NCBI RefSeq assembly: GCF_002157855.1
Contig: NZ_CP020880.1
Coordinates: 3,596,001-3,660,000 of the forward strand
Length of the DNA: 64,000 nt
Source of the DNA: Sutcliffiella horikoshii
GTDB taxonomy: Bacteria; Bacillota; Bacilli; Bacillales; Bacillaceae_I
Direction: 5' to 3'
The notes under the pieces are model-generated. The model was given only the letters and a program-made list of their open reading frames with translations, had not been told where the DNA came from and made no database searches. Shown here in pieces: positions 11,985-64,000 of the stretch (within the stretch, counting starts at the first letter, position 1; each line of letters starts with the position of its first letter). Made by a program: the position numbers and the translations under genes.

Positions 11985-12110
11985 CTTGTTGATTGGAGTG
12001 GAAGGCGAAGACTCCTGAGGGAGATAGCGCTAGGTGGAGACCCCACAGGCTAAGCCGAGGAGGCTCCAGCAGCACCCTAGAAAAGCGAAGCCATTTGCGG
12101 AAATCAACAG
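11985..12110. repeat. dispersed palindromic repeat, copy B (inverted orientation)
   Basis: TTGTTGATTGGAGTGG ... GAAGACTCCTGAGGGAGATAG ... GCGGAAATCAACAG is the reverse complement of the layout at 17018, 18395 and 62046. The ends TTGTTGATT and AATCAACAG are inverted repeats. It lies between yusE and the MFS gene, pointing opposite to the copies in the fad operon relative to transcription. Confidence 0.8.
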
Positions 12111-46865: not shown

Positions 46866-47852
46866 TTACTTAACCGACTTACGCTCCACAATCTCGGTAG
46901 AAAGGTTATAGTAGTTTTCTACTGAATCTTCTTTGGCCAACGCTTGGAATACTACATGTACCGCTAATGCCCCAACTTCATACTTTGGCTGCCTCACGGT
47001 TGTCAAAGGCGGACTCACATACTCAGCAAGCTGGATATCATCATAACCAATGATGGAAATATCCTCTGGCACACTGATTTTGTTTTCTTTAAATGCCTGA
47101 AGACCGCCGATTGCCATCTCGTCATTGGCGTAGAAAATTGCTTCGGGAAGCTGGCGTTGCGCGATCAGCATTTTCGTTGCCCGGTAGCCGCCTTCACGCG
47201 TAAAATCTCCGGACACCTTCCATTTGTTCTGGTATTGGATGCCGTGGTCCTTTAAGGCAGACATATACCCGTCAAAACGCATCTCGTTATCGTGGGAGTT
47301 CATTGGTCCGCTCACATAGCCGATTTCACGATGCCCTTTGTTTATCAGATACTCTGTAGCCGCATATCCGCCATGAATATTGTCCACTTCCACTTGATAA
47401 ACAAACTCATGATCAAGCTTTCGGTCAAGTACGACGATTGGGAAGCCTTCGCGGGCTGATTCTAAGACAATATCATTTGTTATGTTATGGGCAAGGATGA
47501 TCGCACCATCCACCCGTTTTTCTTTTAAGAATTTTGCTGCGGTTGATTGTGCTCCGCCGACAGAGCTGCACGCGATCAGGTCATAGCCATTTGCCGTGGT
47601 CACTTCCTGTACGCCTTTGATGAGTTCGGAATAGAACGGTCCTGATAGATCCCTTAAAATGAGTGCAATGGTATTGGTCTTTGTTCTTTTTAAATCAGAT
47701 GCAAAGCCATTTTTAAAATAGTTCAGTTCTCTTGCGGCTTCCTGGACCTTTTTCATCGTAGCCGGACTGACCTTGTTTACATTATTTAAAGCATAGGATG
47801 CCGTCGAAACTGCTACTCCGGCAAGCTTTGCCACATCTTTGATTGTTGCCAC
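46866..47852 (-). CDS. LacI-family transcriptional repressor
   Basis: A 328-residue LacI/GalR regulator from GTG 47852. The DNA-binding N-terminus is VATIKDVAKLAGVAVSTASYALNN and the hinge follows (VSPATMKKVQEAARELNY). The rest is a periplasmic-binding-like sensor with GGYAATEYLINKGHREIGY and SIIGYDDIQLAEYVSPPLTTVRQP. AAAAGGGGG sits nine bases before the GTG; the ATG at 47900 would add residues before the helix-turn-helix. It lies in the glycan cluster and has CGAAACGTTTC in its promoter, so it is probably autoregulated. The inducer is probably a beta-1,2-gluco-oligosaccharide (inference). Confidence 0.88.
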   Translation of the reverse strand: MATIKDVAKLAGVAVSTASYALNNVNKVSPATMKKVQEAARELNYFKNGFASDLKRTKTNTIALILRDLSGPFYSELIKGVQEVTTANGYDLIACSSVGGAQSTAAKFLKEKRVDGAIILAHNITNDIVLESAREGFPIVVLDRKLDHEFVYQVEVDNIHGGYAATEYLINKGHREIGYVSGPMNSHDNEMRFDGYMSALKDHGIQYQNKWKVSGDFTREGGYRATKMLIAQRQLPEAIFYANDEMAIGGLQAFKENKISVPEDISIIGYDDIQLAEYVSPPLTTVRQPKYEVGALAVHVVFQALAKEDSVENYYNLSTEIVERKSVK

Positions 47853-47916
47853 CTTGCTTAACCCCCTTTTAAAGACAGGCCAGTTGTCCAAAATCAACAA
47901 GTGAATCTGTCCTTTT

Positions 47917-49232: not shown

Positions 49233-52200
49233 TTAGATAAATACCTCGATTTTATTTTTACCGTCAACCAAATGTTGTTCCAATGCGGCCTTGCTGATGA
49301 CAAATCCACCGCTGCGATAGCGGTTGGAAACTTCTGCTCCAGCCACTAACTTGCCATTCACACGAACTTCCTTCTGCTGTTGACCTAAGTGATAAACGAA
49401 TTGAACATCATGCCCATTCACTTTATACGTAAAATGAAGGCCGTTCATATCTGCCGGCAAAACTGGATCCACTACAAGATCTCCAGCTTGAAAACGGATG
49501 CCGAGGCAGTTGGAAATCAATTGGTTCATGTAGATTCCCGGTCCACTAGAGTAGATTCTCCAGCCGCCTTTTACTTTTACAGAGCCATCGCGCAGTTTGC
49601 CAAATTGTTCTTGTGCTTCGTAACGGTCATTGAACTGTCCGTCAGAAGAGCTGAAGTAGGCGTTGCTTTGACGGCGTTCCGCGTTTGGCACTGCCTGTTG
49701 GATATTGATTGGGTTGATGGTATTCAAACCTCTCCACACTTCATCCGTCTTCCCAAGCTTGGCCATTGCTTCCACATACCGGATATGTGCGTGTACATAT
49801 TGAAGCCCGATTTCACGACCGAAGTTTGCGGCTTGTTCTGCACGTTTGAAATGTGTGCTGACACCACCTGCATAGTTTGCAGGGCGGTTCATTAGGCGCA
49901 CGCCGTCCGGGCAGTACAATTCTTTTTTAATCAGGTCAAAATGTGCTTTCGCCTGTTCTGGTGTTAATAATTCACTGATCATGCTGCGAGTCATCGGCAG
50001 CAAACGATAATGAATACCTGTTTTCGTATCTTCAGGGTGTACCATCAATTCTGGTTTGTCCTGATCTTCCATGTAAACGAAACCTGGAATCACGTCAGAT
50101 GCAAGCATGTATTTATTAAAGTCGATCTCAATTCCTTTTGCCAAAGCCTTCAAATCTTCGGCTTCATCTGTCAACACTTCCTCAAGTGCTTTGGAAAGAG
50201 TATTTAACACTTGATATGTTAAGGAAACAGTCCAGCTTGATACCATATATTGCTTCAACTGTGCATTTGCCGGCTGCAGCGTGTCATCCCAGTCTCCATC
50301 ACCATAGGAGGATAGGAAGGTATCATGTAAGAAGTGGTCCTTAATGTATTGAATTTCTTTTTTCGCATGTTCCAACACCGTAGCTTTTTCTTCTGTGAAT
50401 GTGAAAGCACCACGTACCGTATAAGGAACCTTTTCTTCTAAAATAGAGAAGTCTTTTGTGATCGTCAGGTAATCACTTAACACTTTAAGTGGCCAAACGA
50501 TGATATCTCCGTGACTCTCTTCACTTTGGATACGGTTGTATTGATCGAACATGAACCATTGCGGCCAGTTCCCCGTGTCCTCATATTGATGAGTGTAAAC
50601 TTTTTTGATGATTTCCTTCACACTTTCATAGTTTTGCGTGGCCATGAAGTATTCCGTTGGCCCCTGGCAAACATCACGCGTTCCCCATGCCGCTCCACCG
50701 TACTGTTCCAAACCATGTGGCACAGAGTAGTGAACAAGCATGTTGTGTGTGTACCACCATGCAGTGGCATTCATCTTTTCTAACTCTTCCTTGCTTTCGC
50801 TGCCCAATGACAACTTGAATCCGTTCATCACTTTATCAAAAAATGCACGGTACCGCTCTACTTCTGTCGCAAAGGCCGGTTTCGCAAATTCTCGCTCTTC
50901 ACCGTGCAATAACCCTTGAACCGTCATTGTCCAGCTCGCTGTTGCTTCTGTTTCCAATACAACTAAGGAAACAGCTCCTGGAACGACTACTTCTGCAAGC
51001 TTCGTTTCGTCGCTTACCGTAAAGTCAGTGCCTTCCACAGTCAGTTTGTATGCCAAATCAGGGTAAACATGCTTGCTGTCAGACCCGTCCACCGCTTTGA
51101 ACGTCAACACCTTGCCATCCTGTTTCATGTCATAAGAAACAACCAGCTCATTGTTGTTCATGGAGATTTGATTTGTAACAAGGTAGCGGTAGTTTTTGCC
51201 GTTTTCAGACGTTACCTCTAGTTGAACTTCAGGGGAATCTACTACTGTATAGTTTGTTACCACGATCACGTCGTCTGCGGTTTTATAGAACCAGCGGGCA
51301 TAGTTAAAGCCGATTTCGAATAAAGTAGGCATCGTTAGTAGCTTGTACTGTCCTTCCACTTCCACGTAAATGCGCTGACCGGAAGTTTTCATGACATTCA
51401 ACGCATTACGAGCGTTTGTCATCATTTTATGGAAGGACGTGTTTCCTACCACAAGCTGTGAGTTGAAAATACCGTACATATAAGATGTGGAAGTGATGAT
51501 GTTTTCCGTCATTTTGTCATTATTGCCTGACATGATGATATGGCCGTGCGGTCGCTCCACGATAAGCTCTTTTTCTTTTAAAACGATATGCTCATACGTA
51601 TCGGTGAAGAAGGAAAGCAGGTTGTCTCCATCCCATTCTTCTTGCTTGCGAACCGGGAAGTACTTATCTAGTTCCGCTTTTGTAAAAGAAGACCCGGAAA
51701 GCACCCCGGATAGGTTGGCGTTGGCCGTAACTTTTTCCAGCTCCTCAGAAGAGTCGGATGCAAGGTTCTTCACTTCTTCCCAAGCTTGTGCTACCTCGTC
51801 TGTAAACTCAAGCTCTGTTACAGCTTCCTGATGGTTTTCTTTGAACAGGCCATAAAATACGAAGCTTTTTTGTCCATCAAGTATAACCTTTTCAGATTGC
51901 AATCCTGTAAAAGCAAATTCATACTGATAGATTTCATTGGCAAGCGTTTCTTTTGTTAAGATTTCTGGCTCGTTTGTTTCTTTATAAGAAAGACCGAAGA
52001 ATTGGAAGCCGTCTGTTGAATAGCCTGCTGCTTTTGTCAGGGAACCTTGCTGCAGGTATGGAAAACCTCCAGGCTGCGGCTGGTTCTGACGGGAGCAGAC
52101 AACATAGCCATTTTGCTCGTCTTCAAATACGGTGTGATCGATGTATTGAGACAAGTAAGATTCGTTTGTACGGACAAGTCCTTTGCTTCCAATTCCAACG

Positions 52201-52577
52201 TCTTGACCGTAGACAACATCCACTGTTTCGCCTGCGCCATTTACGTTTACATCCCAGAACCAGATACCTTTTTCAGATAGACGGAAGCTAACAGAATAGT
52301 CGATGTCAGCAACAGTTCCTTCCCATTTGATTTCGTTTTGGGAGTAGCTCGTGTTGCTGGTTGATTTTACGCCTAGTAGCGGGTAGGCTTGAATGCTGTT
52401 TTCGCCGTGAACGCGAAGGTATAGATTGTTCAGTGCACCGTCGATTGGGTTGGACATCCATTGGTTGATCATGATTTCTTTGTGTGTTGCTTCGAAGATG
52501 TCCCCGCTGTTAAGGAACGTAAAGCGAACATCTCCGGCTTCTATGTTAATTTTTTGATTGGCTGTTGTTGTTTGCAT
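49233..52577 (-). CDS. GH94 phosphorylase, probable 1,2-beta-oligoglucan phosphorylase
   Basis: A 1114-residue cytoplasmic GH94 enzyme. The N-terminal beta-sandwich (about 1-550) is followed by an (alpha/alpha)6 barrel. Barrel landmarks are TAWWYTHNMLVHYSVPHGLEQ, GGAAWGTRDVCQGPTEYF, and GDGDWDD around residue 760, the place of the family's catalytic acid. GH94 enzymes phosphorolyse beta-glucosides to glucose 1-phosphate. The size and the GH3 neighbour resemble the Listeria innocua pair Lin1839 (1,2-beta-oligoglucan phosphorylase) and Lin1840 (GH3 sophorose-hydrolysing), as I remember them. Cellobiose- and chitobiose-phosphorylases are shorter. Specificity is therefore inferred. Confidence 0.82.
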   Translation of the reverse strand: MQTTTANQKINIEAGDVRFTFLNSGDIFEATHKEIMINQWMSNPIDGALNNLYLRVHGENSIQAYPLLGVKSTSNTSYSQNEIKWEGTVADIDYSVSFRLSEKGIWFWDVNVNGAGETVDVVYGQDVGIGSKGLVRTNESYLSQYIDHTVFEDEQNGYVVCSRQNQPQPGGFPYLQQGSLTKAAGYSTDGFQFFGLSYKETNEPEILTKETLANEIYQYEFAFTGLQSEKVILDGQKSFVFYGLFKENHQEAVTELEFTDEVAQAWEEVKNLASDSSEELEKVTANANLSGVLSGSSFTKAELDKYFPVRKQEEWDGDNLLSFFTDTYEHIVLKEKELIVERPHGHIIMSGNNDKMTENIITSTSYMYGIFNSQLVVGNTSFHKMMTNARNALNVMKTSGQRIYVEVEGQYKLLTMPTLFEIGFNYARWFYKTADDVIVVTNYTVVDSPEVQLEVTSENGKNYRYLVTNQISMNNNELVVSYDMKQDGKVLTFKAVDGSDSKHVYPDLAYKLTVEGTDFTVSDETKLAEVVVPGAVSLVVLETEATASWTMTVQGLLHGEEREFAKPAFATEVERYRAFFDKVMNGFKLSLGSESKEELEKMNATAWWYTHNMLVHYSVPHGLEQYGGAAWGTRDVCQGPTEYFMATQNYESVKEIIKKVYTHQYEDTGNWPQWFMFDQYNRIQSEESHGDIIVWPLKVLSDYLTITKDFSILEEKVPYTVRGAFTFTEEKATVLEHAKKEIQYIKDHFLHDTFLSSYGDGDWDDTLQPANAQLKQYMVSSWTVSLTYQVLNTLSKALEEVLTDEAEDLKALAKGIEIDFNKYMLASDVIPGFVYMEDQDKPELMVHPEDTKTGIHYRLLPMTRSMISELLTPEQAKAHFDLIKKELYCPDGVRLMNRPANYAGGVSTHFKRAEQAANFGREIGLQYVHAHIRYVEAMAKLGKTDEVWRGLNTINPINIQQAVPNAERRQSNAYFSSSDGQFNDRYEAQEQFGKLRDGSVKVKGGWRIYSSGPGIYMNQLISNCLGIRFQAGDLVVDPVLPADMNGLHFTYKVNGHDVQFVYHLGQQQKEVRVNGKLVAGAEVSNRYRSGGFVISKAALEQHLVDGKNKIEVFI

Positions 52578-52631: not shown

Positions 52632-54791
52632 CTACTTATTTAAAACGAACTCTTTTATTGTCAGTTCGTTGCTGTTCGGGCCGATCATGGCGTGGAATTT
52701 GCCTTTGTCGCTTTGGAAACTCAGGTCCGAATGGTAGTATCGGAGCTGTTCTTCTGTGATGGTGAAGGTTATTTGTTTTGTTTCACCAGGCTCTAGCCAT
52801 ACTTTTTCATAGCCTTTTAGCTCTTTAAGCGGGCGGACGATTTCACCAGACAGGTCACGGATATAGAACTGCACCGTTTCTTCTCCGGCACGCTCACCAG
52901 TGTTCGTTACGTTGACTGTCACGTCGAGGCTGGAGTTTTCTGTTAAACTGTCTGCAGATAAACTCATATCGCTGTAAGCAAAGGTTGTATAACTTAACCC
53001 GTACCCAAATGGAAGTAAAGGCTCATTTGGTATATCAAGATAATGTGTGACATAGCGTTCCTGCTTGTTCTCGCCTTGCGGGCGTCCTGTGTTGAAGCAG
53101 TTGTAGTAAACAGGAATCTGGCCTACAGAGTACGGGAAACTCATCGTAAGTCTTCCAGACGGATTCGCATCTCCAAACAACAGGTCTGCGATGGCTGATC
53201 CCGCTTCAGTACCCGGGTACCATGCTTCAAGCAAGGCATCGGATTCCGCGATCACCCCATGAAGATCTAATGGACGACCATTGAAGAGAACCGTCACGAC
53301 AGGTTTTCCAAGCTCCCTTATTTTCGCTACAAGCTTTAATTGTGCTTCCGGCAGGCGGATATCAGCTCGGCAGCCACCTTCTCCGCTCATTTCCGATGCT
53401 TCCCCAAGCGCTAGGACGATGACATCGGCTTTCTTTGCTGTCTCCACAGCTTGTGTGAGTTGCTCTTCTGTAATCGTTTCGATGCCAGATCCTTGCGCCA
53501 CCAAAAGATTAGCCTCAGATATTTTTGCAAGCAGCCCGTCATATACCTGTACTGCGGCTTCCTTTGAACCTTGCCAGGACCAAGGTCCAAGCACGTCACC
53601 ATTTTGGGCAAACGGTCCGATCAGTGCGATTTTCTGCTTTTTATTTAACGGTAGAACCTGGTCATTTTTTAAAAGAACACTAGATTTAATGGCAAGTTCC
53701 TTTGCCACGTGGCGGTGCTCCTCTGACATGATGACCTCTTTTTCTAGTTCCTCGCTCGTACCGCGGTATGGATTTTCGAAAAGACCAAGTTTGTTTTTAA
53801 GGTTTAAAATACGTAAGACCGATTCATCAATCAGTGCTTCCGAAAGCTCGCCGCTCGCCACAAGATCTTCAAGATTCTTCGCATAACAGGCAGTCATCAT
53901 TTCGATGTCGACGCCGGCTTCCAATCCTTTTAGCGCCGCTTCTCGTTCGTCTTCTGCAACACCATGTGGAATCAGTTCTTTTACTGCACCCCAGTCAGAG
54001 ATCATGACGCCGTCAAAGCCCCATTCCTCGCGCAAAAGATCTCTCATCAGCTTTTTATTTCCGGATGCAGGAATGCCGTCTACCGTGTTAAAAGCCGTCA
54101 TGACCATTTCGCAGCCTTCATCAAGTGCCGCTTTATACGCTGGCAGATAGGACTCGCGAAGCTGTCTTTCTGACATGTTGACCGTATTATAATCACGCCC
54201 TCCTTCTGGTGCGCCATATGCTGCGAAGTGTTTTACGCACGCTGCAACACGGTGAGTGTCATTGGTCAAGTCCTCTCCTTGGAAGCCTCGAACAAAGGCC
54301 TTGGCAAAGACACTGTTCAAATAAGGATCCTCTCCTGTTGATTCCATCACGCGTCCCCATCTTGGATCTCTTACTAAATCTACCATCGGTGCAAACGTGA
54401 CATGAACACCAGAAACAGATGCTTCTTTTGCGGCAATTTCTGCACTCTTTTCGGCAAGTTCTGTATTCCAGGAGCAACCAATCGCAAGAGGTACAGGAAA
54501 GATGGTTTTAAATCCGTGGACTATATCTGCCATCATCAGTAGAGGAATTCCCAACCTGTTTTCTGCAAGGTGCTCTCGTTGAATATTGGCAACTTCCCAG
54601 GCCCCTGATGCACCAAGGACGGAGCCGCTGTTTTGCACCACGTCATTTGCAATTCCCATGTCTTCCAAAGGACCGGTAATTTCTCCATCCCCTGCTGCAC
54701 CTTTATAGAAGAATGTTGCCAATTGCATGAGCTGGGCTATTTTCTCCTCTAATGTCATTTGTTCTAGAAGACTTTCCATGTTTTTAGCCAT
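52632..54791 (-). CDS. GH3 beta-glucosidase
   Basis: A 719-residue intracellular GH3 enzyme of the BglX type, without a signal peptide. The catalytic nucleophile is Asp266 in FDGVMISDWGAV, the KHF substrate motif is at about 187-189, and a Gly-rich loop with candidate acid/base glutamates is in GEASEMSGEGG. A fibronectin-III-like domain closes the C-terminus (TNTGERAGEETVQFYIRD). Probably hydrolyses sophorose or short beta-1,2-gluco-oligosaccharides to glucose. It is followed by GH94 after 54 bases. Two LacI-type operators lie in its promoter region and GGGGAGG precedes its start. Confidence 0.9.
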   Translation of the reverse strand: MAKNMESLLEQMTLEEKIAQLMQLATFFYKGAAGDGEITGPLEDMGIANDVVQNSGSVLGASGAWEVANIQREHLAENRLGIPLLMMADIVHGFKTIFPVPLAIGCSWNTELAEKSAEIAAKEASVSGVHVTFAPMVDLVRDPRWGRVMESTGEDPYLNSVFAKAFVRGFQGEDLTNDTHRVAACVKHFAAYGAPEGGRDYNTVNMSERQLRESYLPAYKAALDEGCEMVMTAFNTVDGIPASGNKKLMRDLLREEWGFDGVMISDWGAVKELIPHGVAEDEREAALKGLEAGVDIEMMTACYAKNLEDLVASGELSEALIDESVLRILNLKNKLGLFENPYRGTSEELEKEVIMSEEHRHVAKELAIKSSVLLKNDQVLPLNKKQKIALIGPFAQNGDVLGPWSWQGSKEAAVQVYDGLLAKISEANLLVAQGSGIETITEEQLTQAVETAKKADVIVLALGEASEMSGEGGCRADIRLPEAQLKLVAKIRELGKPVVTVLFNGRPLDLHGVIAESDALLEAWYPGTEAGSAIADLLFGDANPSGRLTMSFPYSVGQIPVYYNCFNTGRPQGENKQERYVTHYLDIPNEPLLPFGYGLSYTTFAYSDMSLSADSLTENSSLDVTVNVTNTGERAGEETVQFYIRDLSGEIVRPLKELKGYEKVWLEPGETKQITFTITEEQLRYYHSDLSFQSDKGKFHAMIGPNSNELTIKEFVLNK

Positions 54792-54945: not shown

Positions 54946-55905
54946 TTATTCACCCGCTATACCAGAGCGGTCCACACCTTCGACAAACCAGCGTTGTGTG
55001 ATGGCATAGACAACAAGCATCGGCAAGATTGTCATGACGGTTCCTGCCATATTGATGCCTTCATTTATTTCAGATGCTTCCCCGCCACTTTGCGGGTACA
55101 TTTGTTGATAGGTTGCTACGAACTTTTGGAGCTCGAGCGGTAAGGTTGTTAATGAGTTACCAAAATAGATCGCTGCCAAATATGTTTCGTTCCAGTACCA
55201 AACGAAGGAGAACAAGAACGAAATGATGATCGCAGGTGCAGCCATCGGAAGCGCAAGTGTCAAGAATATCCGTAAATATCCTGCGCCATCAAGCTGAGCA
55301 GCTTCCTCAAGCGCCTTTGGCATCATTTTAAAGAACTGATAGAAAATCAGAATGAAGATGGCGCTGTTGATTCCTTGTCCAAGTAAGGCCGGAAACAAGA
55401 AAGCCTGAATGCTTCCCAGAATACCAATCTCGTTGAAAAATACATAACGAGGGATGACCGTCACTTGAGGAGGAATGATGAACGTCGCCAATACCAACAC
55501 AAACATGGTTCGTTTGAATGGAAAGGCAAAGCGTGCAAACCCATAACCGACGACCGCACACACTGCCGTTTGAACGATGGCAGGAATAGCTGTCACATAT
55601 AAAGATTCCAATAAAGTAGGCAGGAACTTCAATACCGCATAAGCAGCTTGATAGTTTTCCAGATAAAGTTGCGTCGGGATCCAGTTTACTAGTGGATTTA
55701 AGATATCATCCAAACTTTTCAAACTATAAGAAATCATATAAAGCAACGGGAATAAGTATACAAAGCCAATTCCAATCAACAAGCCGTAAATGAATAGCTT
55801 ATAGAGAAGGCCGTCGTTCCCTTTCATTCCAAAAGCGAGCTTTTTCAACCTGGTCACGATGCCTGTCCCTTTTGGTTTGCGGTTAGTCAGCGATTCGCTT
55901 GCCAT
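54946..55905 (-). CDS. ABC sugar transporter permease (second subunit)
   Basis: A 319-residue carbohydrate ABC permease with about six helices. The MsmG/YesQ-like C-terminal half has the EAA coupling motif EEAAQLDGAGYLRIFLTLALPMAAPA. It is the last gene of the long operon and the partner of the permease at 55920, 14 bases away. A 32-residue N-terminal cytoplasmic tail precedes the first helix. Substrate is presumed a glucan oligosaccharide from context. Confidence 0.88.
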   Translation of the reverse strand: MASESLTNRKPKGTGIVTRLKKLAFGMKGNDGLLYKLFIYGLLIGIGFVYLFPLLYMISYSLKSLDDILNPLVNWIPTQLYLENYQAAYAVLKFLPTLLESLYVTAIPAIVQTAVCAVVGYGFARFAFPFKRTMFVLVLATFIIPPQVTVIPRYVFFNEIGILGSIQAFLFPALLGQGINSAIFILIFYQFFKMMPKALEEAAQLDGAGYLRIFLTLALPMAAPAIIISFLFSFVWYWNETYLAAIYFGNSLTTLPLELQKFVATYQQMYPQSGGEASEINEGINMAGTVMTILPMLVVYAITQRWFVEGVDRSGIAGE

Positions 55906-55919
55906 GATAACGGCCTCCT

Positions 55920-56783
55920 TTAAGCATAATTTTTTCTTCCTCTAACAGTTAACAGTGCGACGGAAATACCCAGTGCGACCGCAATCAATAAGAAGTAAAT
56001 CCATGATAGGGCTGAGGCATAACCAAAGCCTGTATTGATTTGAAACATATTCGTTTGGATATGCTCAATGACTGGATTTAAGGAGAATATCGAGAATGTC
56101 ACTATCGTATAAACCGTGTTAACGACGATCATCGGGAAAATGCTTGGCAGTGTCACCTTCCAAAAGCATTCCCAGTTGGACGCCCCGTCAATTTTGGCAG
56201 CTTCATAGACTTGTGTATCTATCTTTTGCAAGGCTGCCAGGAAAATTAAGAACTGCACCCCGGAAAACCATAAAATGATGATCAGGTTATCCATTAAATA
56301 CAGGAGTACACTGCTGAATAAGGAATCCGCTGAGAGCATTGTTTCAAACACCGCATAGTCCTTGATGGAAGGAATGGATGTCACTCCTTGTGAAATTAAT
56401 TCATTGATAACCGGGCCGCTCGCAATGATAACCGGTAAGAAGAAAATCATCCGGAAAAAATTACGAAAGCGGATCGGCTGATTCAAGAGAATCGCGATGA
56501 TTAAAGAAAACACAATGATGATTGGAACGGACAACACAAGCTCCTGCACAAACGTCAACAGCTTTTGTGTGAACAATGCATCCACTGTAAAAGCATCTTT
56601 AAAATTATCAAACTTCACAAAAGTCGTTTGGATGCCTTCTGTGGTGATCCGTACTTTTTGAAAACTTAAGTACAACGAATAAAAGAGGGGATAAGCTGTG
56701 AATAAGAGAAACCCAAGAATCCAAGGTGAGATGAACAATAATCCTGTCAGCGAATTCTTCGAGCGCATGGATAGCTGCTTCAT
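55920..56783 (-). CDS. ABC sugar transporter permease (first subunit)
   Basis: A 287-residue permease of the UgpA/YesP type with LFISPWILGFLLFTAYPLFYSLYLSF at the N-terminus and EAAKIDGASNWECFWKVTLPSIFP as coupling motif. It pairs with the 54946 gene and begins two bases after the DUF5696 gene ends. No ATPase lies in the window; a shared MsmX/UgpC-type ATPase elsewhere in the genome is normal in Bacillus. Confidence 0.88.
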   Translation of the reverse strand: MKQLSMRSKNSLTGLLFISPWILGFLLFTAYPLFYSLYLSFQKVRITTEGIQTTFVKFDNFKDAFTVDALFTQKLLTFVQELVLSVPIIIVFSLIIAILLNQPIRFRNFFRMIFFLPVIIASGPVINELISQGVTSIPSIKDYAVFETMLSADSLFSSVLLYLMDNLIIILWFSGVQFLIFLAALQKIDTQVYEAAKIDGASNWECFWKVTLPSIFPMIVVNTVYTIVTFSIFSLNPVIEHIQTNMFQINTGFGYASALSWIYFLLIAVALGISVALLTVRGRKNYA

Positions 56784-56785
56784 GC

Positions 56786-59044
56786 TTAATTCCCCCCTTC
56801 TTTTATGCTAAATGACGTAGCCTCGACCGTTGTTCCGTCAATGGACACGTCTGAATCCGTGTAGTTGACGATAATGGATACCCCATTTTCATAAACAACT
56901 TCAGACACCCCTTGTTGATGGACAATCCGATCGACAATTGAGCTGTTTTCTACTTTTCCAAGACTTTCTTTCACTTGACTGTATTGACTGATCAGTTCTT
57001 CTTTCCAACTAACAAACTCTGATGTATACAAACCTCTTGATGGAGTCTTCATTAACAGCTGTGCAGACTCCCTCGTCAGATAAAAGGATGGATATGCACC
57101 AAACTCGATCATTCTCAGCACTTCTTCCGTTGGATTATGAGAGAAGTTGGAGAATGTCGCATAATACGGCGTGTATCCCTTCAAAACAATTTGTAAGAAC
57201 GGAACGGTGTCTGTTACAAACATATAGTTGGAGGAATACATTGGCATATCCAAGTACTTATCCATATAGCCCCAAGCATAGTCATTCGGACGATAGAGAG
57301 ATAAATCTATATTTTGTTCCTGATAATGTGCAAAAAGTTCTTGATTCGATTCCATCATCTCTGCTCTTGAAGAGGACATACCCTTATTAAAGTCAGAGAA
57401 TAGTTTACTTGCAGTCGTTTCCACTGCTATGTTTTCTACCCCATGATCCTTGAAATCCGCTGCATCTTTTTTGGCAATTTCAAGCGATTTCGCAGGACTG
57501 AGATAATAACTGCTATAACCAAATTGACTTTTCGTCATCGGCTGGCCGTTAATCTTCTTGGACACATCCTTGCTTCCGGAAAAGCCGGATGCGCCGTCAA
57601 AAGCAGTCGTGAAGTCTGTGTGCAGATAAAAAGGAATGTCTTTTTCCTCTAAAGTTTGGATGGTTTCCTCTAGGTCCCCTTTACTGCCAACCTTCTTCTC
57701 TAACGGAAACTTTTGTGGCAGCGTTCCCGTCAAACCGCCTTTTGTCCAGCCTCTTAACACCACATGCAGATTATCGACATCGTTTTGCTCCAACTCTTCA
57801 ACAAAACGAGGAATGTCTTGGATCTCTGTCATTTGCTCCACGGAATTCCAGATCAGGCCTTTTTTCGTTTCCCCGCCTAAAAGTTCCAGGCGAAGATCTA
57901 CCTTGTCTTCGTTATTGCCAGAAAGCGTGCCTTTTTCTTCTAAATGCTGCTGATATCTGTTGGCCATTCCAACATAATCTGCTTCTTCGTCAGATAAAAA
58001 CATGACTTTCTGTTTGATTGTGAAGCTGTTTCTTTCTTCTTGGTAGACGTTAAAGCCTCCCATGCTCTTGCTTGTCGGTTGAAAATAATTAAAGCGATAT
58101 TGATAGTCTGATGTTACCCAAAAGAAATCAGTAGAGGCACCAGACGGATATGCAAGAATTCTTCCGTAGCTTTGGCCTTCCTCAACGGATGTGATGAAGG
58201 CATTTTGTTTGACACCATGTACGGCACCGTACACAGGAACGGAAATCATCTGTTCCGGGTATGTGTCATTTTCTGTGCTTTGCGGTTTTGTAAATCCTTC
58301 ATCTTCTCCATAGATGGAACCGATGAATGGTGTATCTGAACGGAACGCACTCTTTTCAAATCGCATTAGCGCACCGCTTCCGTCCGGAATAAACAAGTAC
58401 CCGGTGATATCATCCATGTGGGCAGCACCTAAGAATGGATAGACTTTCATCGCTACAATTTTATTGTAAGTCCCATCTTGTACACCTTCATCCGGCACAT
58501 CAATTACAATGTTTTCCTCTTCCAGCGTCACATTCAGTACGACTTCAATGCTGGAACCACGGAAATCAATCTCTGCTGTAAAGCCGTTGTCGTTTAGTTG
58601 AATGTTCGGCTTTGTCTCTTCTGTCAGAATGCTTTCTGTTTTAATGTTTCCGCGGCGATCCAGGTAATCAATCGTGATGGCGGATTGAACCATATCTGTC
58701 CATGTGTTGTTCAACCGGTAATTTTCCGCGTTATCCACCCCTGAGTGCCAAATATAACCCGTTTCTTTGTTCTGAATTTTTATAGCCAGTGACTCTTCTT
58801 GTATATACAGCGCAAGCTTGTCGTTCTCGGTTACCTTTGTAAAACCATCAAGGCTTCCTTCAGGTAGAGGTTTATTCTCTCCCTCTGGCTGGGTGAACTG
58901 ATTGGAATCAAAGCGAAGTGTCTCTTCTCCGAGCTCTGTTTCCACCTCGATTTCTTCCAACTCTTCCTTTGATGTCAATGATTCAGCAAATACAGATACC
59001 GGAAGAATGGCGATAAGCATGACAAGCAGAATTTTTTTAAACAC
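56786..59044 (-). CDS. DUF5696-type secreted protein, candidate glycoside hydrolase
   Basis: A 752-residue protein with a signal peptide (residues 1-21, MFKKILLVMLIAILPVSVFA). The N-terminal half (30-370) looks like a beta-sandwich with GSGALMRFEK and SVPVYGAVHGVKQNAFI. From about 380 a TIM-barrel-like region runs to about 660 with WTKGGLTGTLPQKFPLEKKVG, FYLHTDFTTAFDG (Asp477) and NIAVETTASKLFSDFN (Glu542), and a small C-terminal beta domain follows (GVSIIVNYTDSDVSIDG). This resembles families assigned as DUF5696 and structurally recalls GH101-like hydrolases. Activity is not shown. It overlaps the NHL gene by 8 bases and abuts the permease gene by 2. Possibly acts outside the cell on the transported glycan. 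Confidence 0.7.
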   Translation of the reverse strand: MFKKILLVMLIAILPVSVFAESLTSKEELEEIEVETELGEETLRFDSNQFTQPEGENKPLPEGSLDGFTKVTENDKLALYIQEESLAIKIQNKETGYIWHSGVDNAENYRLNNTWTDMVQSAITIDYLDRRGNIKTESILTEETKPNIQLNDNGFTAEIDFRGSSIEVVLNVTLEEENIVIDVPDEGVQDGTYNKIVAMKVYPFLGAAHMDDITGYLFIPDGSGALMRFEKSAFRSDTPFIGSIYGEDEGFTKPQSTENDTYPEQMISVPVYGAVHGVKQNAFITSVEEGQSYGRILAYPSGASTDFFWVTSDYQYRFNYFQPTSKSMGGFNVYQEERNSFTIKQKVMFLSDEEADYVGMANRYQQHLEEKGTLSGNNEDKVDLRLELLGGETKKGLIWNSVEQMTEIQDIPRFVEELEQNDVDNLHVVLRGWTKGGLTGTLPQKFPLEKKVGSKGDLEETIQTLEEKDIPFYLHTDFTTAFDGASGFSGSKDVSKKINGQPMTKSQFGYSSYYLSPAKSLEIAKKDAADFKDHGVENIAVETTASKLFSDFNKGMSSSRAEMMESNQELFAHYQEQNIDLSLYRPNDYAWGYMDKYLDMPMYSSNYMFVTDTVPFLQIVLKGYTPYYATFSNFSHNPTEEVLRMIEFGAYPSFYLTRESAQLLMKTPSRGLYTSEFVSWKEELISQYSQVKESLGKVENSSIVDRIVHQQGVSEVVYENGVSIIVNYTDSDVSIDGTTVEATSFSIKEGGN

Positions 59045-61061
59045 GGAGAATCACCTCCTGAATGATTGCTGTTACAAAATCAATAACCTGATCCATCAAT
59101 ACGTAGATAATGAAACATACCAATACAATGATCAGCATACAGAAAATCGTCGTAAAGATGTTTCGTACCGTTCCCCAGAATTCAAAAGCATGAATTTCTT
59201 TGATCATGATGAACAGGATAATTAACGACCATCCCATCATCACTTGCATAAAGAATACATACAAGAAGTATTCATTAAGCGTAAGTACATTGGACATGAG
59301 CGTAATTGGAACCAAGAGCACAATAATCGGTGCCAATGAATAAATGGTTCCAATATAAATATCGGAGAATCTTCCTTCTCCATCGTTAATCGTACTGACC
59401 AGATAATTGGATACGATGAAAAGAATGATTGGAAGAAATAATAGAATGAATTCCATTCCAAAATTGATTTGCTCTAACGTAATGCCGCCCCTGAAAATAA
59501 ATCCTGTGAAATACTTCATGAATAAAAATTCGGCATATAAGATGACGTAAAGAATGGTGGCTGATAAAACGCTGACCTTTCTCTGTCTTTTAATATAATA
59601 GAAGCTGTCTATTGGATGACGTAAAAACTTGCCTAAGAATAATAGCTCACTCAGTAGTTTCTTACTTTTGAATGCCTGCCACCTTTTCCGTGCCGGTGCT
59701 AAGATCCCTTTCTTTTTATCTGCAAAAAGCAAGGTCGCCCTGACAGCAAATAATCCGAGTAAGATGGCAAAAACAGTGCTCAGATTCTCATTCATCCACT
59801 GATTTCTGATTTCCCAGAAGGAATCAGAATAACCTTCCACATTCCCAACCAGTTCAAATGATTCCAAAGCATCTTCATATTCCTGCTGCTTATAGTAAGC
59901 TTCCCCCATTGCGTTATGTGCAAGGCCGATGGAAGAATTCATGCGCAGCACTTCGCTCCAATATTGCTCACTCTCTATGTAAAGTCCTTGAGCATAGAGG
60001 GAGATTCCGCCATGAAGCATTTCAGCGAAGGCTGTTGGTTCCAGCACTTGAACGGTTCCGCGCTCACGGTCTGTAACAAAAACCCTGCCGAGATTATCTG
60101 TTGCAACTCCTGAAGGATCCATAAACAATCCCAGGCGGTTTGTTCCATCGTCTTTTCCGCCAAAAATAAAGAGCAGATTCCCGAAACTATCATACTCGTA
60201 GATTCTTCCATCTTTAGCTAAAACAAAGAAATTTCCAAGTGGCCCCATTGCGATATCCTGAAGATTAGTAATCTCGGAAATGTACGGTGATAAAATATTC
60301 CCGCCTGCAATGTTCAGCTTTCGAATGACTTCAAAGCTAGTACCCGCTGTAATGGTGTAAACAAGTCCTTTTTCATCAATCGCAATGTTAGTCGGCGCTG
60401 GCGGCACTTTCAGAAACATGCTGGAGCGCTGCTGATCGGTTGTCAGAGCATCCTGAATGACAGACATTAACGACGGTCTTGTACGGTTTACTCCGAAGAA
60501 TCCAAGAAATGTGCCATCCTGGCCAACCTGGATAATCCCATTAGTTGAACCCTCTCCGATAATGTAGAGGTTGCCTCGTTTGTCCACGGTAATTTTTTGT
60601 GGTTTATATGGGGTTCTTGTCCCAAAAAGGGGAGAATCCGGTCTGCCGTATTCTTGGAGCATTTCTCCATCTTCAGAAAAACGGTAAACTTTTTCATTTG
60701 TATAATCTGCTACATATATTTGCTGTTCTTCATCCACAAAAACCCCCGTCGGCATTTGCAGGATTCCTTCTCCGACCTCTAACAGTTTTCTACCATTCTC
60801 ATCAAACTTGGTGATTTTCTTCGTACCGGAATCAGCCACATACACATCATTGTTCTGATCGATATAGACATCTTCCGGACTGACTATATCATTTGTACTT
60901 CCGAAAAGCCCCACCGGAATATAAGCGGTCTGCGTTTCAATGATATCCCCTTCTGTTGATACCGTCTCTGTATTATATGGAACAGACAGGGCTGCAAAAG
61001 ATTGCAAAGGAGAAAGGAGGATTAACCATACAGTCAATAAGCCAATGAAAATGTGCTTCAT
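59037..61061 (-). CDS. NHL beta-propeller / TPR / YIP1 membrane protein
   Basis: A 674-residue exported membrane protein. A signal sequence (1-23) precedes six or so NHL repeats (about 45-340), e.g. VYIDQNNDVYVADSGTKKIT, QIYVADYTNEKVYRFSEDG and ATDNLGRVFVTDRERGTVQV. A TPR-like hairpin follows (about 355-415; HNAMGEAYYKQQEYEDALESFE), then a transmembrane helix (about 437-458) and a YIP1-type membrane domain with about five helices to the C-terminus. The propeller and TPR should face outside. No role is known to me. It sits between one permease (61080) and DUF5696, and ends 8 bases inside DUF5696. Confidence 0.75.
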   Translation of the reverse strand: MKHIFIGLLTVWLILLSPLQSFAALSVPYNTETVSTEGDIIETQTAYIPVGLFGSTNDIVSPEDVYIDQNNDVYVADSGTKKITKFDENGRKLLEVGEGILQMPTGVFVDEEQQIYVADYTNEKVYRFSEDGEMLQEYGRPDSPLFGTRTPYKPQKITVDKRGNLYIIGEGSTNGIIQVGQDGTFLGFFGVNRTRPSLMSVIQDALTTDQQRSSMFLKVPPAPTNIAIDEKGLVYTITAGTSFEVIRKLNIAGGNILSPYISEITNLQDIAMGPLGNFFVLAKDGRIYEYDSFGNLLFIFGGKDDGTNRLGLFMDPSGVATDNLGRVFVTDRERGTVQVLEPTAFAEMLHGGISLYAQGLYIESEQYWSEVLRMNSSIGLAHNAMGEAYYKQQEYEDALESFELVGNVEGYSDSFWEIRNQWMNENLSTVFAILLGLFAVRATLLFADKKKGILAPARKRWQAFKSKKLLSELLFLGKFLRHPIDSFYYIKRQRKVSVLSATILYVILYAEFLFMKYFTGFIFRGGITLEQINFGMEFILLFLPIILFIVSNYLVSTINDGEGRFSDIYIGTIYSLAPIIVLLVPITLMSNVLTLNEYFLYVFFMQVMMGWSLIILFIMIKEIHAFEFWGTVRNIFTTIFCMLIIVLVCFIIYVLMDQVIDFVTAIIQEVILRV

Positions 61062-61079: not shown

Positions 61080-61967
61080 CTACTTGATTCCTGAATGTGC
61101 CATCGTATTCATTACTTGACTTTGTAAGATGATAAAGATGATTAAATTTGGAATGAACATAATTAAAGATGCCGCTGCCGCCATTCCTTGGCCCGCTACC
61201 GTGTTACCACTTGTTGCCGAAGTTAATGTAGACATGTAAAAGGCAAAGGTCTTCAAATTTTCATTATCAACAAACAATGTCGAGGTTTCCGTGTTATTCC
61301 AAACAAGTTGAAATGATAAAATCGCAATGGTGGCAATCGCCGGTTTTACAAGCGGAATGATAATTTTGCGGAAGATTTGATAGTCCGTCGCCCCATCCAT
61401 CTGAGCAGCTTCTATTAATTCGTTCGGTATTTGATCGATGAATTGTTTTACTAAGAAAAGTCCGATCGGCATGGCGATCAGCGGGAAAATATGGACAAGG
61501 AATGTGTCCAACAGCCCCACCTTTTCAATAAGCAAGTAACGCGGAATGACGACTGCCGCCGAAACGAACATTAAAGCAAGTGTGTTGATTTCAAAGATGG
61601 TTTTCTTTAGTCTGAAACGTTTTTTCGATAAGGCATACCCTGCCATCGTACTGATAAGAACAGTGACAAAGACAACGATGAGGGTAATGGAGATACTGTT
61701 AAACAAGTAACGGGACATTGGAACGCCCGTTGTACTTGTGTTGTTCATCAAATCAATGAAGTTCTGCATCGTCGGCTTTTGCACAAAAAAGCGCGGCGGA
61801 TAAGCGAATAGCTCATCAATCGGCTTAAAGGCGTGAGAAAAGACAAAGACGATGGGCATAGCCATAAAGATGGCGAGCGGTATTAGAAATGCATAGAATT
61901 TCAATTGGCTTTTGTGAAAACGGTCTGGATTGATTTTCGTTCCATGGAATGCCGACACATCATTCAC
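61080..61967 (-). CDS. ABC sugar transporter permease (second subunit)
   Basis: A 295-residue carbohydrate permease. The cytoplasmic coupling motif is [25 protein letters not shown]. The C-terminus carries [37 protein letters not shown], which is typical of YesQ/LacG-type permeases. It pairs with the 62280 permease, but a dispersed repeat and over 300 bases separate the two genes. It precedes the NHL/YIP1 gene by 18 bases. Confidence 0.9.
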
Positions 61968-62279: not shown

Positions 62280-63173
62280 TTAGTCTTTTTCTCCGAATAA
62301 ACGCCAAGCGATTTTTGAGAAGATATATACGAATAATAGTAATAGAACGCTTATTGCTGCTGCATATCCCATTTCATAACGAATGAAGCCATAGTCTTCT
62401 AAATGGTTGACCATTAACTGACCCGCATATTGAGGCGTTGGGTTGGCACCGGATAAGGCGACCCCGATCGCACCGGCCTGGAACGTCCCTACTACTGCCA
62501 TGACTGCGCCGAAAAGCATCTGTGGCTTCATGGATGGAATGGTGATATAGATGATTTCTTGGAATCTATTTTTTATGCCGTCAATATAACCAGCTTCATA
62601 GATTTCCCTATTGATGTTCAACACACCCGATAGCATCGCAAGGAATCCTACTCCCATGCTCCCCCAAAGGGTAACCACGATCATGATCGTCATTAAGTGA
62701 TCTGGTGATTGCAGCCATTGTACAGGCTCCAAGATGACACCGATTGTAATTAATAAACTATTCAAGTAACCCGTCTGATCCCCACTGAAAATGATGGTCC
62801 ACACAACTGCCATCGCGATTCCGGCTGTCATGGACGGAGAATAGATGATAAGCGCCAATACAGTTCGCGGCCCTTTGGAGATCTGCGCCAGCATCCAAGC
62901 AAGCAGGAAGGATAAAATATATCCCCCCGGCCCGACGATGACTGCAAACATCAGCGTATTCGGCAAGACGCGCTGCATAAAGACTTCATCTTGGGTTAGC
63001 ACACTCACATAGTTGGCAAGCCCGATGAAGCTCGGCATCTCAATCGCGTTGAAATACGTGAACGATAAAAGAATGGCCACTACGACCGGAATGATGATAA
63101 AGGTAAAGAAAAAGATTAAATATGGTGCAAGAAAGATCGATGTACTTGCATGCTTTTGAAGGCTACTCCTCAT
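62280..63173 (-). CDS. ABC sugar transporter permease (first subunit)
   Basis: A 297-residue permease with [25 protein letters not shown] at the N-terminus and [26 protein letters not shown] as coupling motif (YesP/LacF type). Its start overlaps the 3' end of the solute-binding protein gene by 11 bases, showing that they work together. Confidence 0.9.
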
Positions 63174-64000
63174 TTTCTTCCACCCAGCTTTCTACTTGTT
63201 CAATCGTCGGAATCGGATAGGTTTTTACGATTTTTCCGTCTTTCATATATCCGAATTCCTCCATCTTCCGTCTCATTTCACGGTCAATGGTCACCACCGC
63301 ATCATCAACTGCTGAACGGGTATTTTCCCCGTCAAAGACGACACGGTTCCATACATTACTTATCTCACGCTCTACCATATAAGTGTAAGGCGTTTTTGGT
63401 ACTTCACGTAAATGTTCCCATTGCTCTAAGATGACTTCCTTATGTTCCTCTGGCCATGGTAATTGTTTAAAAGCGTCAAGATTTGCGGTATTCCACATAT
63501 AAGATGGACCATACATGATTTGCAAAGTAGTAGCAAAGTCCGTCTGTGTTTCTGTGGACATCCACCATTTAAGCACTTGCCATGCTTCGTCTTTATTCTT
63601 GCTGCCGTTAAAAATCATGCCTGCCTGTCCAGATCCTGTTGCCCATCTTTCCACTTCTCCGTCCTCATTCTCCACTCCAGGATGAAGGGAAATGTCCCAC
63701 CAGCCGGAGATCTCCGGTGCTGCAGATGTAAGCTCCACATATGTCTGGAAGTTAGAAACACCGATCGGCAAAGTAGAATAACGGAAATGGTTATAGAAAT
63801 TCGGCACTTGAAGCGGCGTGCTGTAGATTGTATTCAAGTCCGTCATAAGCTGAATCCCACGGACTGTTTCATCGCTGTCGATCGTCGTTCCCATGCCATC
63901 TTCTTTATACATGTCCCCTTGATGTTGATAGATAAATGGCGAGGTTGACTGGAATGGTTTGAACGCCACTGCACCTGCAATAGGCGTGTAGTAATTTAAT
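63163..64000 (-). CDS. ABC sugar-binding protein, N-terminus off the window
   Basis: The C-terminal 278 or so residues of a large extracellular solute-binding protein (SBP family 1). Visible segments include [60 protein letters not shown] and [20 protein letters not shown]. The N-terminal lipoprotein signal is beyond the right edge. Ends EENEE and overlaps the permease gene. Probably binds beta-glucan oligosaccharides, as the L. innocua SOGP cluster has a binding protein of this kind. Confidence 0.85.

Follow-up and report, generated by a model that had tools for sequence, protein, structure and literature searches.

A putative ABC glycan importer cassette with two conserved partner proteins, the NHL/Yip1 protein YIPN and a DUF5696 protein, in a Sutcliffiella-type genome

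The window, a 64,000-nucleotide stretch of a Sutcliffiella-type genome (G000:C1:3596001-3660000), contained a putative eight-gene importer cassette that was cut by the window edge, and the reading was extended past that edge. Coordinates below follow window numbering. In the direction of transcription the operon order was: a small solute-binding protein (SBP), a large hybrid solute-binding protein (SBPbig), permeases P1 and P2, a protein with an NHL propeller and a Yip1 membrane domain (YIPN), a DUF5696 protein, permeases P3 and P4, a glycoside hydrolase (GH) of family GH3, and an SOGP. YIPN, DUF5696, P3 and P4 formed the core of the cassette, with an 8-bp overlap between YIPN and DUF5696 and spacings of 2 bp (DUF5696-P3) and 14 bp (P3-P4). 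The original prediction, made from the window alone, had described this four-gene block, and its coordinates, overlap and spacings were all confirmed. A complete binding-protein/permease set had also been placed ahead of the block; the permease pair (P1-P2) was present, and the supposed binding protein at 63163-63999 was only the C-terminal 278 amino acids of SBPbig. The nearest named relatives of the DUF5696 gene were from Sutcliffiella horikoshii and Bacillus sp. RO2 (92-95% identity). All features are listed in Table 1.

Table 1. Genes and other features of the operon and its surroundings, in window numbering unless stated otherwise.
Feature	Position	Strand	Remarks
SBP, 458-amino-acid lipoprotein binding protein	G000:C1:3662136-3663512, outside the window		upstream in the operon; SBP family over cut-off
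SBPbig, C-terminal 278 amino acids of a 979-amino-acid hybrid solute-binding protein	63163..63999	-	continues to 66102 (L003:2164-5103)
P1, MalF-type CUT1 permease	62280..63173	-	11-bp overlap with SBPbig
Interspersed repeat, one copy of ~145 bp, lying between P1 and P2	62030..62180	.	outside the conserved cassette
P2, MalG-type CUT1 permease	61080..61967	-	
YIPN, 674 amino acids: signal peptide, NHL propeller, TPR, Yip1 membrane domain	59037..61061	-	Pfam NHL, TPR_2 and Yip1 over cut-off
DUF5696, 752 amino acids, exported, GH129/GH101 fold	56786..59044	-	PF18952, 630.9 bits (cut-off 25.6), full-length
P3, MalF-type CUT1 permease	55920..56783	-	PF00528
P4, MalG-type CUT1 permease	54946..55905	-	PF00528
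GH3 beta-glucosidase	52632..54791	-	nearest solved structure Lin1840, E 9.6e-237
SOGP	49233..52577	-	SOGP Pfam domains; nearest solved structure 5h3z, 1037.6 bits
LacI-type regulator, downstream	46866..47900	-	

All four permeases scored over the PF00528 cut-off and were of the MalF/MalG-type CUT1 kind, and the EAA coupling motif occurred in nearly all of the 106-108 sequences available for each. Both SBP and SBPbig were solute-binding proteins by family scores over cut-off. The SBP domain of SBPbig fell within residues 570-861 and was nearest to Lin1841 (5ysb, E 1.4e-14); its N-terminal half gave a weak, below-cut-off CBM35-like match. In one related locus (L049) SBPbig was read as two open reading frames (ORFs) of 103 and 878 amino acids, a frameshift or an assembly error. 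The nearest solved structure to the small SBP was 22hh (E 8.5e-101), one of five entries (22hh-22hl) named 'Extracellular solute-binding protein family 1', and the ligand of these entries would inform the cargo of the cassettes. SBPbig would serve P1-P2, and the small SBP most likely serves P3-P4. The original prediction gave the second permease pair no binding protein of its own and put the two exported proteins in that place. Neither statement held: the SBP lipoprotein and SBPbig both lay upstream within reach, and the gene next to the last permease was an SBP in 7/10 loci tested. The apparent lack was an artefact of the window, because the small SBP and most of SBPbig were encoded beyond its edge. 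No ATPase was found among the operon genes; two UgpC-type ATPases over the NF008653 cut-off were encoded elsewhere in the genome. On a Paenibacillus cellulosilyticus plasmid a UgpC-type ATPase gene lay directly beside the cassette.

A search of 101 related genomes gave PF18952 matches over the cut-off in 29, one of which (G075) was a GH129 protein. The order SBPbig-P1-P2-YIPN-DUF5696-P3-P4 was kept in 32/32 full-length DUF5696 loci among the relatives (the window's own counted), with DUF5696 identity falling to 26% among them. In six of the 32, separate genes encoded the NHL and Yip1 parts of YIPN. The conserved order was not found in six relative loci with only weak DUF5696 matches.

Loci from named records were collected with the PDGSG pattern as bait, which returned at least 599 pattern matches and at least 569 confirmed relatives. 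The best 80 of these were used, and the set leans to the window's kind because the best-scoring loci were chosen. By title these records included: Bacillota, Anaerolineae/Chloroflexi and one Thermosipho record, with many metagenome assemblies. All seven genes were collinear on one strand in 72 of the best 80 loci; the other eight (L114, L115, L118, L120, L126, L129, L137, L141) lacked genes at a contig end. YIPN and DUF5696 overlapped in 80/80 named-record loci, and the median DUF5696-P3 spacing was -4 bp. On a Butyrivibrio plasmid the cassette was preceded by a GH43 gene and followed by two SBP genes. The gene order recurs in Bacillota, Chloroflexi/Anaerolineae and Thermosipho records and is not a chance arrangement.

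PF18952 matches over the cut-off were present in 39 of 398 genomes sampled evenly across the phylum. Two of these were borderline (G399 and G422, a DUF6259 and a GH129 protein), and full-length DUF5696 was present in 37. Up to three candidates were scored per genome, so that DUF5696 copy numbers in this sample are lower bounds. Strong YIPN profile matches (E <= 1e-45) occurred in exactly the same 37 genomes. A partial YIPN frame of 284 amino acids (9.4e-33) was found in G341 without DUF5696, and the remaining 110 YIPN-matching genomes scored 2.8e-20 or worse. Full-length-type SBPbig matches occurred in the 37 DUF5696 genomes and in two others, G204 and G253, in which SBPbig lay about 0.7 kb from the contig start on the side where its partners would be. 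Seven genomes had SBPbig profile matches to the SBP domain only, and one genome had seven near-full-length SBPbig matches. The claim that the exported YIP1/NHL and DUF5696 proteins belong with the permeases was supported in these genomes, in which the co-occurrence that the original prediction had proposed to check was found.

Strict limits for the YIPN-DUF5696-P3-P4 block were passed by 45/54 phylum-sample loci. Four of the other nine were cut by contig ends (L199, L201, L226, L232), and five failed on spacing only, with genes and order unchanged (L183, L227, L228, L229, L231). YIPN and DUF5696 were often a few bases apart in this sample, not overlapping. SBPbig-P1-P2 lay upstream of the core in 29 of the 54 loci, downstream in six and outside the stretch in 19, several of these with little room. 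Because the block was kept where SBPbig-P1-P2 was not adjacent, YIPN-DUF5696-P3-P4 is the most constant core, and SBPbig-P1-P2 is its usual companion. Twelve genomes were searched in other classes of the phylum, of which eight had stand-alone core blocks, and SBPbig was found in all of them (12/12). Weak DUF5696 matches outside the cassette (L065-L070, L234, L235) were set aside: the six scanned (L065-L067, L070, L234 and L235) were GH129 (two), GH13 (three) and DUF6259 (one) proteins and not DUF5696 proper. The DUF6259 protein (L234:8634-10766; borderline DUF5696 match of 25.7 bits) lay among sugar permease genes and is possibly another glycosidase-like importer partner.

These arrangements bear on whether the operon encodes two ordinary, independent importers, SBPbig with P1-P2 and SBP with P3-P4, for different chain lengths, with YIPN and DUF5696 accessory to P3-P4 alone. 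Two SBPs for two permease pairs fit that arrangement, as do the 19 loci with the core apart from SBPbig-P1-P2, the six in which the core precedes it, and the SBP that follows P4 in seven of the ten loci tested. The linkage exceeds what independent importers need, however: SBPbig was present in 37/37 DUF5696 genomes and in all 12 genomes searched in other classes. We consider two independent importers a real possibility, if a somewhat unlikely one. Mirror-tree partial correlations were 0.47 for DUF5696-SBPbig, 0.42 for DUF5696-YIPN, 0.52 for P1-P2 and -0.23 for DUF5696-P1; the comparison was given little weight because contact and a shared rate were inseparable.

The Yip1 domain of the window YIPN (PF04893) scored 36.5 bits against a cut-off of 28.6, and NHL and Yip1 matches (Yip1 at E <= 1e-3) were present in 54/54 aligned YIPN proteins. 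The model of YIPN had a mean predicted local distance difference test score (pLDDT) of 89.2 and a predicted template modelling score (pTM) of 0.75, and consisted of a propeller followed by the helices of the TPR and membrane parts. PDB matches of the propeller included: the NHL domains of Thin, TRIM71 and Brat, designed six-fold Pizza proteins, and the extracellular domain of PknD (1rwl, rank 41). The propeller was six-bladed by its structural matches. By title, none of the 50 PDB matches listed was a membrane protein that matched the Yip1 part. The propeller probably faces outward because a signal peptide is present.

A lipobox was present, by a simple pattern rule, in 61/66 SBP, 4/71 SBPbig and 5/79 DUF5696 proteins; in the phylum sample it was present in 3/33 SBPbig and 7/54 DUF5696 proteins. 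These counts covered SBPs of at least 400 amino acids and 100 bits, SBPbig proteins of at least 900 amino acids and DUF5696 proteins of at least 700 amino acids, all clear of contig edges. An exported protein that has no anchor of its own depends on a partner to remain at the surface of a single-membrane cell. YIPN is the obvious candidate for this dock because SBPbig and DUF5696 are, by this rule, mostly unanchored and YIPN has both a large propeller and a membrane domain.

YIPN and DUF5696 could also stand outside the working importer, as permease assembly or quality-control factors or as a transport sensor. The match to the extracellular domain of PknD, which we take to be a sensor domain, is consistent with such a role, as are the TPR repeats, which usually bind proteins, and the position of both genes between the permease pairs. 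Against it, the seven conserved genes included no kinase, protease or regulator, and the full glycosidase fold of DUF5696 would be unusual for a chaperone. This role appears improbable.

The model of the DUF5696 protein had a mean pLDDT of 90.6 and a pTM of 0.90. A Foldseek search of the PDB placed GH129 structures at ranks 1-11 (5opq, E 5.6e-36, target template modelling (TM) score 0.74), and 13 of the 15 structures at ranks 12-26 were GH101 by title. Sequence profiles placed the protein weakly in the same family (5wzn, 3.4e-05). Among Pfam families only PF18952 was over the cut-off, and the GH129 family PF11308 gave no match to the window protein at E <= 0.5. A GH129 Pfam search of 299 genomes also gave no match, which is not proof of absence. 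A viral structure search returned nothing informative (rank 1 target TM 0.21).

The nucleophile column, 542, was set by an hhalign comparison with a GH101-like protein, L248 (E 1.3e-5), in which it aligned with the Asp after strand 4 of that protein. The aligned L248 Asp is presumably the GH101 nucleophile, an assumption based on GH101 biochemistry and on the titles of mutant structures (D764N, E796Q). Placement of the acid/base column, 584/585, is approximate. Among 155 distinct DUF5696 proteins column 542 held D in 62 and E in 17 (79/155), the rest having S, R, G, A, Q, T and others. By source, D or E was present in 25/32 proteins from relatives, 50/69 from named records and 4/54 from the phylum sample. 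Acids at both 542 and the approximate 584/585 were found in 20/155 (4/32, 14/69 and 2/54, respectively), so a catalytic pair was not conserved; the window protein had E542 with Y584 and R585. The most constant acids were D221, in the PDGSG loop of the beta-sandwich, and E647. D221 was D in 152/155 proteins, 69 of which had been fetched by the PDGSG pattern; in the phylum sample, collected without that bait, it was D in 51/54, and the complete PDGSG was present in 38/54. Other conserved residues on barrel loops were W433, N633 and R560.

DUF5696 is probably a pseudo-glycosidase, a reading drawn from models and alignments, because the GH129/GH101 fold is kept and the catalytic pair is mostly missing. 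Some members are possibly active. The acid columns and the Pfam results disfavour an ordinary GH129/GH101 enzyme, with the caveat that the window's clade mostly keeps the 542 acid, and the rarity of the acid pair likewise weighs against the suggestion that DUF5696 trims the glycan. An alternative is that DUF5696 works at the surface as an active glycosidase or transglycosylase and trims glycans ahead of import. This would suit the fold, the acid at 542 in 75/101 proteins of the window's wider clade, the 20 proteins with both acids, the barrel-loop residues and D221. It is decidedly improbable given that the phylum sample has the 542 acid in just 4/54 with the gene still beside the importer, that the second acid is mostly missing, and that the DUF5696 gene persists beside changing partner enzymes.

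The enzymes at the locus point to the cargo. The window SOGP and GH3 were nearest to solved beta-1,2-glucan enzymes (5h3z, presumably the Lachnoclostridium SOGP, and Lin1840), consistent with a beta-1,2-glucan locus. A PF10091 (glucoamylase-like) gene, which we take to encode a GH144 domain, followed P4 in 9/10 related loci tested. The window's cluster contained no PF10091 gene; one was present in its genome, far from the operon. At a related locus (L078) the PF10091 gene matched the endo-beta-1,2-glucanase 5gzh in the PDB at 1.1e-41, with five entries higher, among them XCC2207 and other glucoamylase-like ones. The GH35 protein of the same locus was closest to the GH35 beta-1,2-glucosyltransferase described in PMC8861115. 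The same paper describes the Listeria cluster, in which a binding protein accompanies SOGP and GH3. Lin1840 is a GH3 enzyme characterised on beta-1,2-glucan (PMC4757417). Judged from these enzymes, the cargo in this Sutcliffiella-type genome is very probably a beta-1,2-gluco-oligosaccharide.

Outside this group the cassette had different neighbours: GH10, GH26, GH28, GH31, GH43, GH2, GH3, GH123 and others. The tallies covered 90 of 229 ORFs, hand-picked at about 480 amino acids or more, and, of 55 and 49 families, the first 25 in each case, so neighbour enzymes are under-counted. Because the enzymes vary, the cassette is not restricted to a single glycan, and a system for beta-1,2-glucan only was rejected as a general rule.

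Taken as a whole, the locus suggests an ABC (ATP-binding cassette) glycan importer with YIPN and DUF5696 as undescribed conserved partners. We give about even chances to a CUT1-type importer cassette in which the propeller protein YIPN holds unanchored surface proteins and DUF5696 is a pseudo-glycosidase partner. Two CUT1 permease pairs, P1-P2 served by SBPbig and P3-P4 most likely by the small lipoprotein SBP, would both be powered by a shared MsmX/UgpC-type ATPase encoded elsewhere. YIPN would be anchored by its Yip1 domain with the propeller outside, and would most likely be the dock that keeps SBPbig and DUF5696 at the permeases in a physical complex. The exported DUF5696 protein most likely binds or guides the glycan, or another cassette protein, without cutting; capture or presentation of the glycan by the exported proteins is possible. 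Transport would be inward, with beta-1,2-gluco-oligosaccharides imported for breakdown by SOGP and GH3 in the cytoplasm. A stronger version would assemble everything into one glycan-loading surface machine: both permease pairs, both SBPs, the YIPN propeller and a dead glycosidase threading the oligosaccharide between SBPs and permeases, common to Bacillota, Chloroflexota and Thermotogota and put to use on many different glycans. This stronger version is tentative and, on balance, unlikely.

Several points weigh against the reading with YIPN as dock and DUF5696 as pseudo-glycosidase. The structure models were of single chains only. The component distance correlations were all high, and contact and common descent were inseparable in them. 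With SBPbig-P1-P2 outside the stretch in 19/54 phylum-sample loci, the halves may function at different sites or may not form one machine. The lipobox rule is crude, its few positives (5/79 DUF5696 and 4/71 SBPbig) are positive by that rule, and some proteins scored as lacking a lipobox (e.g., L132-L134), DUF5696 proteins among them, may keep an N-terminal membrane helix. Because the window's clade mostly keeps the 542 acid (25/32 and 50/69; E in the window protein), the pseudo-enzyme reading for that clade rests on the second column, whose placement is only approximate. Other barrel acids were also fairly conserved (387 in 89%, 551 in 83% and 612 in 81%) and could serve other chemistry.

Literature searches, whose reach left most subscription papers and preprints outside, found no paper for DUF5696, for NHL repeat with YIP1 and ABC transporter, or for Yip1 domain with solute-binding protein and permease. 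Among papers naming 'YIP1 family protein' and 'ABC transporter permease', none was on this system by its title and the start of its abstract. The statement in the original prediction that the YIP1/NHL-DUF5696 pairing has no published function therefore agrees with the literature searched. About one in ten phylum-sample genomes (37/398) carried the set, some in multiple copies. If the reading is true, many bacteria carry two conserved, apparently unstudied subunits in their sugar importers, a glycosidase fold now serves as a component of transport, and two large families of 'unknown function' gain a testable role.

Other features of the window were recorded separately. The downstream LacI-type gene is a possible regulator of the operon. 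The ~145-bp repeat had at least 43 matches in its own genome, where 40 of the 249 candidates from the first look were scored. The 40 strong copies were on the + strand in 22/25 cases in the upper half of the chromosome and on the - strand in 12/15 cases in the lower half, as if the strand bias tracked replication. The 28-base core of the repeat had a second window copy at 12039-12066 with three mismatches. An S-adenosylmethionine (SAM) riboswitch (RF00162, 8967-9079, - strand, 87.3 bits) was the sole Rfam match over the gathering score in the window.

Compared with CUT1 ABC importers of the MalFG/UgpAE type, which use a shared MsmX/UgpC ATPase, the cassette was alike in its EAA-motif permeases and its SBPs, and possibly in the use of the stand-alone ATPases in the genome, and differed in adding a second permease pair, the 979-amino-acid hybrid SBP, YIPN and DUF5696. 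The Listeria innocua cluster (Lin1839 SOGP, Lin1840 GH3, Lin1841 binding protein) held the nearest solved relatives of the window's GH3 (Lin1840) and of the SBPbig SBP domain (Lin1841), with SOGP in both; that cluster has a single SBP with a single permease pair and is not known to encode YIPN or DUF5696. DUF5696 shared the overall fold of the GH129 enzymes (NagBb, ZgGH129; TM 0.74) and the GH101 enzymes (EngBF, Streptococcus pneumoniae GH101), whereas its acid pair was mostly missing and a PF11308 match at E <= 0.5 was lacking. YIPN shared the propeller fold with the NHL domains of Thin, TRIM71 and Brat and the extracellular domain of PknD, and differed from these in carrying TPR and a Yip1 membrane domain on the same chain and in its link to ABC permeases. 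The reading as one surface machine, if it holds, would be a single-membrane counterpart, in logic, of the outer-membrane Sus systems.

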